In this document: positions 32,288 through 36,950 of the stretch, one piece after another | Numbering within the stretch: the first letter of the stretch is position 1 | Layout of the letters: the number at the start of each line of letters is the position of its first letter | Virus record (IMG/VR): IMGVR_UViG_3300018063_000305 | Span: 1-44,983 of that record | Length of the DNA: 44,983 nucleotides | DNA from: a virus | Reading direction: 5' to 3' (one strand) | Made by a program: the position numbers and the translations under genes | The notes under the pieces: model-generated | The model's database searches: none | Seen by the model: only the letters and a program-made list of their open reading frames with translations | Told to the model about the DNA's origin: nothing

Positions 32288-32539
32288 TCATTTCACCAAA
32301 ATTAATTCAACATTTTTAAACATAATTCCATTATTTGGTCCTATACTTAATTCAATTATTGTCTCTTCTCCTTCAATATGAACGCTATATTTTGTTACTT
32401 CATTTTTATTTTTAACATACCAATTAAATACATCTTGACAAACATTAGCATATGTTTCATGGTCTACATTAAATGATTTAGGCCATTCACCTAATCCATA
32501 TGTTTTATTAAATATTGAACGTAATTCATTTGATGTCAT
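32288..32539 (-). CDS. Hypothetical protein (83 aa)
   Basis: 83 residues: an N-terminal helical region (SNELRSIFNKTYGLGEWPKSFNVDHETYANVCQDVFNWYVKN), then beta-strands (YSVHIEGEETIIELSIG). No family recognised. Overlaps a small membrane-protein gene at its 5' end. Confidence 0.5.
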   Translation of the reverse strand: MTSNELRSIFNKTYGLGEWPKSFNVDHETYANVCQDVFNWYVKNKNEVTKYSVHIEGEETIIELSIGPNNGIMFKNVELILVK

Positions 32540-32621
32540 TTTTATTATCCTTATATATTTTATATATAACTATTGGAAAAAATAATATTATACATACCGT
32601 AAATATAATGATAAATATCAT
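32526..32621 (-). CDS. Membrane micro-protein (31 aa)
   Basis: 31 residues (MIFIIIFTVCIILFFPIVIYK then KDNKNDIK): one hydrophobic span and a charged tail. It is placed between the polymerase palm gene and the 83-aa gene with short overlaps at both ends (4 nt and 14 nt). Similar in architecture to the micro-proteins at 30337 and 40408. Confidence 0.4.
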   Translation of the reverse strand: MIFIIIFTVCIILFFPIVIYKIYKDNKNDIK

Positions 32622-33529
32622 ATTTTCCTCATCTCATTCTCATAAATAATATTATCCAATCTAGTATCTTCAGGTAAATTAACTACACTAAATTGTTCTG
32701 TTATAGTTTTAATTGGCATGATTGGTGTAATGATTAGACCTTCATGAAATTTAAATTTACTTAAGTCCTTATAATTTTCACCTATTTCAAGTTCACATGG
32801 GATTATCAAGTTACGTCTTGATAATGAACATCTACTAAAATTCAATGGTCTTTCCATTTCTGTCTTAATAATTGGACCTTGTATATCAAGGTCTTTCTTT
32901 CTAATGCAGAAAAGTAAAGCATCATGGCTTTCCAATACAATCCGAATATCAGGAATAATCTGTTTAATCCTTAGTCCTGCTGCCTTAGTGTTATCGCTAA
33001 TTGCTCTCTGTGGAATATATGCAAATGCTTGTCTAAATAATTCATCTCCAAATCGTTCATAAAATGTTCTAGTTCCACCTATTTCTGCATTTATACCAAA
33101 GGGTACTGGTGCTATTAATCTTCTATTTATTTTTAACTGTTCAATTATCTCATGATGAAATATTTGTTGTATTTTTGGTGATTTATTGTGGAATATTTTA
33201 AGCGCGCGTTCGGCTATTACTTCATTAATAACTATTGGAATCTTGTACTTTCTTGCTTGTGTATTTAACTCTATTGATGCTCGTCTTTTTCCTGCGCCAA
33301 GATTTCCCGCATGACGTAAAGTTTTCCCGGCAAATCTGATTGGTGATTCAAAACCCAATACTTTCTTAGAATAATCAGATTCAGAACCACCGAAAAACCA
33401 AGAAGCAGTAAGAGCATGTATGTCGTGATTGTCATACAATTTAAGAGTATCTTCATCATTTGATAATAATGAAACTACCCTTGCCTCAGCTTGTGATGAG
33501 TCACTTTGAAGGAAAATCCATTCATTCAT
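32618..33529 (-). CDS. DNA polymerase family A, palm/fingers half (split gene, C-terminal part)
   Basis: 303 residues carrying the catalytic core: motif A SDSSQAEAR (Asp10), motif B/O-helix RFAGKTLRHAGNLGAG (Arg65, Lys69, His73) and motif C ESHDALLF (His202, Asp203). It begins exactly where family A polymerases pass from the thumb/template region into motif A. The ATG overlaps the stop of the preceding gene in ATGA. His replaces the O-helix aromatic and Leu the usual Tyr (NLGAG). Probably works as a heterodimer with the 33526..35244 product. Confidence 0.85.
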   Translation of the reverse strand: MNEWIFLQSDSSQAEARVVSLLSNDEDTLKLYDNHDIHALTASWFFGGSESDYSKKVLGFESPIRFAGKTLRHAGNLGAGKRRASIELNTQARKYKIPIVINEVIAERALKIFHNKSPKIQQIFHHEIIEQLKINRRLIAPVPFGINAEIGGTRTFYERFGDELFRQAFAYIPQRAISDNTKAAGLRIKQIIPDIRIVLESHDALLFCIRKKDLDIQGPIIKTEMERPLNFSRCSLSRRNLIIPCELEIGENYKDLSKFKFHEGLIITPIMPIKTITEQFSVVNLPEDTRLDNIIYENEMRKI

Positions 33530-35244
33530 GGTATAAATATTTCACGAACATCTGAATATTCTCCGTGCTTTGATATAGTTTGAAATGCCATACCTAAAAC
33601 TTTTTGTTTCTTTTTTCCATTCTCATCTATAACTTCAACCATTGAACGTATTGGAGGGTCTTGTTGGCCTGTACTAGTACGTCCTGTTTCAAGGCATGGA
33701 AAATAAGTTGTTCTCATACGTCCATCATAATCAGGTAAGGCCATGAGATAAGTTGATATGGCTTTTCTCATTCTTCTTCCTTCAAGAATTAATTCAACTA
33801 TTTTTCTATGTTCTTTATTAGTAAATGATTGTAAATTAAGTAATGAAGTTAATTCTTCTTCTCCAGTTCCCTTTCGTGGTGGTAATTTTAAATTATCAAA
33901 TAATAATGAATAAATTTGTTTTGGTGAATTTACATTGATTTCAGTTCCAGTTAATTTAAATAATTCATATCTATTTTGTTCATCCATTGCAATATATTTC
34001 TTTAATAGACGTTCGCGCGCAACTTCATCTATACCAAATCCTTGATTCTCTATACTGAGATAAAGTTCAGGTAACTTCATTAAAAAGTTATTATAGAATT
34101 CTACTTGATTCAATTCAACTAAATCTGGTTCCATATTTTCATCCACTTCGTAGGTAACACAAGCATCTCGCGCGCATCCAATTAATAAATCACTTATTCT
34201 ACCTTCATACATCCCTTCGTCTTTATAGAAAGGTTCTTCCGTATAGATGGATGTGTTAAACGCAAGTGATTTAGGTAATTCAGGATTGATTGCGAAGGCT
34301 TTGAGCATAGTGTCGGATATATGTTTTCTAATGGAAAATCCAAGCCTTCGGATTTTATCTCTATCGTAATTAAAATTTTGTCCAATGATTTCTTTTTCAT
34401 ATAATATTTCAGCCAAGATTAACCAGATTTGTACCAAATCACTATCAGGTATTGAACTGATATTATCTCTATTCCATAATGGAACTGTCATTCCATGTTG
34501 GGGATTAAATGCCAATCCAATACAAATAGGTATACAATGTCCACCTGCTTCAATGTCTACTGATAACTTAATTTTATCTTTATAACGCGCGCGAAATTCA
34601 GCTAACTCAAATGAACTTCGACATATTTGTAAAGTTCTTTGAGGTAACTTAAGTTCAGGAAATTTTGATTGAGCGTTAGCTCGTTTGAAATCGAATACCA
34701 TCACAAAACGATTCCAATATCCTTTTATTTCACTTGCGTCTGTATACAATAAATGAGCTGGATGATATGTTGGAACTACTTTAGTTCCCATTCCTGTTAA
34801 AATACTTCCTCTAAAATTAGATAATGAACCAGCCCGGTATTTTATATTACCTTCATCATCTTCGCTTTTCTTTTTTGATTTAGGTTTAATTCCTGTAAGA
34901 GCCCATAATGCAGTTCCACCTAATGCTAGGATACAATTAGGCTTGATTGAATTAATTTCTTCCTGTAATTCCTTAAGTGATTCTTCTACATTGATGCCAG
35001 CGTTTCGCGCGCGAATCCATGATGGTATCTTTTTTCCTTTTATATTCGGTTGTATCTCGTATTTGAATACATTACTTATCCATGTATCACTTCGTGATAT
35101 GTTAGAATCCTTGAGAAGTCTATCTAATTCTTTACCTGATGGTCCTACAAATGGTTTACCTGCTTCTACTTCTGCATATGATGGTGCTTCACCTAATAAC
35201 ATTAATTTGGCACCGATACTTCCACCACCAGGAACATATTTCAT
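33526..35244 (-). CDS. UDG-like domain fused to 3'-5' exonuclease and PolA thumb (split polymerase, N-terminal part)
   Basis: 572 residues. About 8-185 is a family 4-type uracil-DNA glycosylase-like domain (LGEAPSYAEVEAGKPFVGPSG at 17-37; HPAHLL at 161-166) lacking the four iron-sulfur cysteines of that family. About 225-370 is a DEDD 3'-5' exonuclease (SVDIE, D230/E232; NFNYD, D294; RDACVTYEV, D360). About 380-572 is the thumb/template part ending VREIFIP. The gene stops just before motif A, which resumes in the next frame at 33529. Proofreading and possibly uracil recognition are inferred. Confidence 0.83.
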   Translation of the reverse strand: MKYVPGGGSIGAKLMLLGEAPSYAEVEAGKPFVGPSGKELDRLLKDSNISRSDTWISNVFKYEIQPNIKGKKIPSWIRARNAGINVEESLKELQEEINSIKPNCILALGGTALWALTGIKPKSKKKSEDDEGNIKYRAGSLSNFRGSILTGMGTKVVPTYHPAHLLYTDASEIKGYWNRFVMVFDFKRANAQSKFPELKLPQRTLQICRSSFELAEFRARYKDKIKLSVDIEAGGHCIPICIGLAFNPQHGMTVPLWNRDNISSIPDSDLVQIWLILAEILYEKEIIGQNFNYDRDKIRRLGFSIRKHISDTMLKAFAINPELPKSLAFNTSIYTEEPFYKDEGMYEGRISDLLIGCARDACVTYEVDENMEPDLVELNQVEFYNNFLMKLPELYLSIENQGFGIDEVARERLLKKYIAMDEQNRYELFKLTGTEINVNSPKQIYSLLFDNLKLPPRKGTGEEELTSLLNLQSFTNKEHRKIVELILEGRRMRKAISTYLMALPDYDGRMRTTYFPCLETGRTSTGQQDPPIRSMVEVIDENGKKKQKVLGMAFQTISKHGEYSDVREIFIP

Positions 35245-36839: not shown

Positions 36840-36867
36840 TTATTTTTCTCCTACTAAATTAACTGAG

Positions 36868-36950
36868 TGCGCGCAATCGGACTTGAACCGATATGCTATT
36901 TCTAGCGAAAGATTTTAAGTCTTTTGTGTATGCCATTTCACCATGCGCGC
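36868..36950 (-). tRNA. tRNA-Leu (anticodon UAA)
   Basis: 83 nt on the minus strand. Acceptor GCGCGCA / TGCGCGC with discriminator A and no encoded CCA; D-stem GTG/CAC; anticodon stem AAAGA/TCTTT around CTTAAAA (anticodon TAA, reading UUA). The long variable arm GCTA-GAAA-TAGC is typical of class II leucine tRNAs. T-arm is ATCGG-TTCAAGT-CCGAT. UUA is a heavily used leucine codon in this AT-rich genome, so the tRNA probably supports late translation. Confidence 0.92.

Follow-up and report, generated by a model that had tools for sequence, protein, structure and literature searches.

The virus record IMGVR_UViG_3300018063_000305 of IMG/VR, a 44,983-base stretch of DNA analyzed here over its whole length and called the window below, carries two polymerase open reading frames on its minus strand, the first ending where the second begins. 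This arrangement raises the question of whether the phage makes a family A DNA polymerase from two separate chains, or whether a single gene has been interrupted by a frameshift or by an error in the sequence.

Two Overlapping Genes Read Jointly as One Family A Polymerase

Gene 1 and gene 2 are a real two-gene family A polymerase, whose features are listed in Table 1. The C terminus of gene 1 reads DVREIFIP-stop, encoded at its end by GAA ATA TTT ATA CCA TGA, and gene 2 opens with MNEWIF; the window sequence at the junction reads ...ATACCATGAATGAATGG. The ATGA overlap described in the first-pass annotation is confirmed from both minus-strand ORFs. The two frames lie one base apart, the second being −1 relative to the first, and this single-base difference is known from one metagenomic assembly.

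Table 1. Features of the Polymerase Locus in the Window
Feature	Position	Strand	Description
Gene 1 (N-half)	33526..35244	-	572 aa; family A DNA polymerase portion with UDG, 3'-5' exonuclease, thumb and N-terminal palm
UDG superfamily domain	34735..35229	-	PF03167, gene 1 residues 6-170; motifs GEAPSYAEVEAGKPFVG and HPAHLL
3'-5' exonuclease motifs	34138..34563	-	SVDIEAGG (34540-34563), GQNFNYDRDK (34354-34383), CARDACVTYEVDE (34138-34176)
Family A polymerase domain, N-terminal part	33652..33975	-	gene 1, PF00476 positions 18-127
ATGA overlap	33526..33529	-	TGA, stop of gene 1; ATG, start of gene 2
Gene 2 (C-half)	32618..33529	-	303 aa; catalytic palm and fingers with motifs A, B and C; starts MNEWIFLQSDSSQAEAR
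Motif A	33479..33514	-	FLQSDSSQAEAR; catalytic Asp10, the 10th residue of gene 2
Motif B / O-helix	33290..33337	-	RFAGKTLRHAGNLGAG; invariant R65, K69 and H73
Motif C	32909..32938	-	VLESHDALLF; invariant H202 and D203
Small YANVC gene	32288..32539	-	directly 3' of gene 2; homolog between the halves in split genomes L005 and L175

The Pfam match to the UDG domain has an E value of 2.3e-21, and the acidic residues of the exonuclease motifs are invariant across 54 intact relatives. Both genes match PF00476 above its curated cut-off, and since the gene 1 match is followed in the profile by that of gene 2 (positions 151–380), the halves are complementary. The joined protein is a continuous family A polymerase with zero residues missing, which bears out the earlier reading of the two products as one seamless enzyme. 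Residues D10, R65, K69, H202, and D203 are invariant in all 47 C-halves aligned. Judged by motif spacing, an invariant His occupies the O-helix position that corresponds to Klenow Phe762, and Leu stands at the Tyr766 position in nearly the whole clade; on this sequence comparison the O-helix of the UDG-PolA clade is unusual among family A polymerases.

The position of the break was examined on predicted structures. The AlphaFold model of an intact relative (L003; pLDDT 89.6) matches E. coli Pol I/Klenow, with a TM score of 0.80 against E. coli Pol I (target-normalized). In this model the junction falls after residue 556, within a predicted β-turn between strand 553–554 and the motif A strand, 561–568, in agreement with the first-pass placement of the break just before motif A. 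The C-half of the window, predicted alone, has a pLDDT of 91.8; its first strand (residues 4–11) is the motif A strand, and the predicted structure matches family A polymerases including Taq (E 5e-11).

Two further features of the window concern its composition and gene content. The hexamers GCGCGC and CGCGCG occur 42 and 38 times in the window (1–44983, 33% GC), where 0.65 and 0.20 are expected, and five of the 42 GCGCGC sites lie in the polymerase half genes (33202, 34015, 34170, 34587, and 35007). This enrichment is also seen in the split genomes L045, L205, and L175, and not or hardly in L005, L146, L003, L009, and L029. Upstream of the polymerase genes, at 36867–36950, is a gene for tRNA-Leu(taa); in L146, too, a tRNA is found close to the polymerase.

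The Same Break Is Found in Six Related Genomes

IMG/VR was searched with both halves and then with every split relative, yielding about 280 loci, and two more scans followed. Distinct genomes, defined by 95% N-half identity, number 124 with the window included. In about 117 of them (∼95%) the UDG-PolA gene is uninterrupted, and in 7, again counting the window, it is split. The intact UDG-exonuclease-PolA proteins (e.g., L003, L009, and L171), at roughly 57%–73% identity, have the same domain order as the window and the same neighbors, a cold-shock gene and a DUF3987 primase-like gene, but differ in being one uninterrupted chain. Because most relatives are intact, the split state is probably derived, and because such a proportion of distinct relatives keeps one gene, the split is unnecessary for function. 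One contig (IMGVR_UViG_3300036851_000016, 62,483 bases) carries two different UDG-PolA genes, L009 and L026, at its opposite ends; assembly has probably merged two phage genomes here. A search of GTDB contigs gave no prophage relative. Phage GenBank gave zero nucleotide-level matches to the window and only distant protein matches.

The split seen in the window by the first-pass annotation recurs at the same place in the six other genomes, with different genes between the halves. All six are broken at the loop used in the window, where intact relatives have a linker that varies in length (about 2–27 aa), and have 115–943 nt of unrelated small genes between the halves. The intervening DNA holds five small ORFs in L005 (943 nt), a 38-aa zinc-ribbon-like ORF in L205 (115 nt), and one small ORF in each of L038 (192 nt), L045 (187 nt), L175 (211 nt), and L146 (228 nt; L147 is a second contig of the same genome). 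Despite 80% identity in both halves, L045 and L205 have different inserts. The YANVC family of small genes, found between the halves in L005 and L175, is represented in the window immediately after gene 2. Half 1 ends with P-stop as CC-ATG-A in five of the seven split genomes, and that ATG opens the next gene. Close relatives are thus not all uninterrupted: L005, the nearest row to the window by identity (71% overall), is itself split. Among the UDG-PolA relatives examined, no frame break was found elsewhere in the polymerase gene; apparent internal stops in L133 and L034 were rejected as merely gene ends.

The split genomes do not form a single group. A careful tree of 38 rows requires 5 changes of the split state (4–6 across bootstraps); well-supported branches force at least 4 state changes, and none of the bootstrap trees unites the split genomes in one clade. 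An AU test on a quick tree of 92 rows likewise rejects one split clade (p = 0.025). L038 is clearly separate, with intact L229/L040 as its sister, and the window and L005 form one clade on the quick tree, a branching that the careful tree leaves open. Separate trees of N-halves and C-halves, for which the quick search fell short of better trees by 46–84 log units, lacked the resolution to reveal independent recombination of the halves. Since better topologies escape the quick trees, the number of origins is only approximate. These trees suggest that the same cut has recurred at least four times among the relatives of the window, counted as state changes (fission or refusion).

Both Halves Are under Purifying Selection

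For pairs of split genomes, dN/dS lies between 0.04 and 0.22 for both halves. Between the window and L005 it is about 0.12–0.14 across the halves, a rough estimate with dS near saturation. These ratios indicate that both halves are under purifying selection after the split. The replication-region ORFs scanned, which include a DUF3987/primase-like protein, a Sak4-like ATPase, a PD-(D/E)XK nuclease-like protein, and a SNF2-type helicase, contain no second polymerase.

A Distant Polymerase Lineage Is Split at the Same Turn

The marine phages MEP401 and MEP402 (OP830906/OP830907), members of the Zobellviridae that infect marine OM43 bacteria, have a DNA polymerase in two ORFs around a small unknown ORF, for which an intron was suspected; the break site is not discussed there (2023, PMC10580990). 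MEP401-type gp13 ends with IKTLFLSRYGE-stop, and gp15 opens with MILNADAKALEWV, which is motif A. Like the window, these phages have a two-gene family A polymerase with the break in the turn just before motif A, and one or more small genes, or none, between the halves. Unlike the window, they have an N-half with no UDG domain and belong to a distant polymerase lineage; no MEP401-like record was found among the tblastn hits of the window, which falls outside that lineage.

We sampled this lineage from cultured phages, including MEP401, MEP402, and Alcaligenes phage QDWS535, and from their environmental kin. The break lies at the same site in all 80 loci with both halves readable. Among the MEP401-lineage loci sampled, the split is fixed without exception, in contrast to its rare and derived state in the UDG-PolA clade. 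The gap between the halves ranges from −5 to 3607 nt. The halves overlap in L346, L352, L354, and L356, lie 5 nt apart (TAATG) in L330 and others, and directly abut as two polymerase genes in QDWS535 (OK172329); other gaps measure 229–462 nt and 638 nt. The widest, 3,607 nt in L284 (MW202796), holds several genes including a cytosine methyltransferase. In L285 (MW202697) the ORF between the halves is annotated as an R67 dihydrofolate reductase, and the annotated C-half is probably too short, because its start omits the motif A region.

Alternatives to Two Separate Chains

A sequencing or assembly error, with one base missing at the junction of a gene that is truly continuous, would account for frames that differ by exactly one base and for the seamless protein join, and the intact state of most relatives favors it. 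We nevertheless consider it unlikely. The N-half of L005 terminates with the FIP-TGA seen in the window, and there the gene is truly split, by 943 nt; the split relatives are all broken at this site only, which a one-base error would have had to hit by chance; and when one-base indels were simulated near the linker of 84 intact relatives, only 0.9% of 27,270 gave an ATG overlapping the stop. Programmed −1 ribosomal frameshifting, which would produce a fused polymerase, perhaps beside a short product, fits the direction of the frame change and would give a fusion of the right length. However, the stop of gene 1 is not preceded by an X-XXY-YYZ slippery heptamer, and frameshifting is unable to join the halves in the six split relatives, because whole genes intervene; for the window it is very improbable.

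Removal of an intron, or splicing by a split intein, would also restore a joined polymerase. Phage polymerase genes are classic targets of both elements, the MEP401 authors suspected an intron, and an HNH endonuclease lies between the polymerase halves of Vibrio phage ICP2 (see below). The window, however, has no intervening sequence, and its chains, which end in REIFIP-stop and start with MNEWIF at the palm turn, carry no intein extension, so that both elements are excluded there. Elsewhere the two halves of a split locus overlap, are separated by 5 nt, or stand 3.6 kb apart with ordinary genes between them; an intron cannot account for the overlapping or the distant pairs, and Rfam searches of the split loci, MEP401-like and ICP2-like loci among them, found no intron. 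We therefore give splicing almost no weight. Gene decay, in which the halves would be remnants in a phage that uses another polymerase, begins with breakage by a frame difference of the kind seen here, but both halves keep all catalytic motifs and evolve as intact genes do, dN/dS against L005 is low even if read with caution at near-saturated dS, and the replication-region ORFs scanned hold no other polymerase, making decay scarcely credible. The first-pass annotation had left open a two-subunit polymerase and a frameshift or error; the recurrent split in six relatives and in a distant lineage supports the former.

A Model for the Two-Chain Polymerase

The two genes very probably encode the halves of one family A polymerase that has undergone fission at the pre-motif A turn, with two chains that associate into an active enzyme. 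Fission in the turn that immediately precedes the motif A β strand would yield two genes, the first encoding a chain with the UDG, the proofreading exonuclease, the thumb, and the first part of the palm, and the second a chain with motifs A, B, and C. These chains would associate non-covalently, and the palm sheet would re-form across the broken β-turn to give one active polymerase. Non-covalent reconstitution of the palm is the simplest mechanism, because the junction lies in a turn and the C-half is predicted to fold alone. We infer that the pair has polymerase activity and that it serves as the replicase of the window phage.

The ATGA overlap suggests that translation of the two genes is coupled. 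No Shine-Dalgarno-like sequence lies directly upstream of the gene 2 start, as is also the case for many genes of this phage, and because of the overlap termination-reinitiation is the likeliest way for gene 2 to be started. Chain 2 would then be made by ribosomes that terminate and reinitiate at ATGA, keeping the two chains near 1:1.

Comparison with Other Split Phage Polymerases

Split phage polymerases are already known, in the T4-like gp43A/gp43B and in MEP401, and the window is a variant of that kind. Repeated fission at one active-site turn has apparently gone unremarked in the open-access literature. It is unexpected that fission should repeatedly strike the most conserved part of a replicative polymerase, and always at one β-turn. 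It implies that a palm sheet can form from two chains in nature, and it marks a natural site at which a family A polymerase could be divided in two. For MEP401-like phages, a testable heterodimer replaces the reading as probably an intron. The series of intact, touching, and overlapping genes, and of halves 3.6 kb apart, offers a natural record of how a single-chain enzyme becomes a two-subunit one.

In Vibrio phage ICP2 (L396, NC_015158), PolA is in two pieces with the HNH endonuclease between them, and is annotated as a join. In ICP2_2013_A_Haiti and Saratov-12 (L397, NC_024791; L398, MT066160) the halves are adjacent, without the HNH gene, and in some isolates the gap is 9 nt. These phages form a natural before/after pair for fission driven by a homing endonuclease. 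As in the window, the break in this family A polymerase is near motif A, but it comes about twelve residues earlier (PNLQNISN-stop / MSDIKRCIISRF..IMECDFSQLE). The comparison suggests a route to fission in which a homing endonuclease inserts in the sequence encoding the active site and is then lost or replaced. Taking these lineages together, we lean, with some reserve, toward the pre-motif A turn being a general fission hotspot, broken independently in several unrelated lineages and in at least one of them through an insertion of the homing-endonuclease type. The split enzymes would then make up a widespread, unrecognized class of obligate two-chain PolA, with the catalytic half as an independent, movable gene.

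The LUZ24-like phages also have a family A polymerase from two separated ORFs, DNA polymerase part I and part II, described as exons (PMC3890496), but the split (171 aa + 546 aa) separates the exonuclease domain from the polymerase domain and lies outside the palm. The gp43A/gp43B polymerases of the T4-like Aeromonas phages 25 and 44RR resemble the window in being a phage replicase of two chains, and differ in belonging to family B and in a split that contains either an intercistronic element or a gene for a seg homing endonuclease, neither of which is present in the window. Two-chain reconstitution has a precedent in this system, since gp43A and gp43B from phage 25 reportedly co-purify and show polymerase activity (Petrov et al., 2010; PMC2988022).
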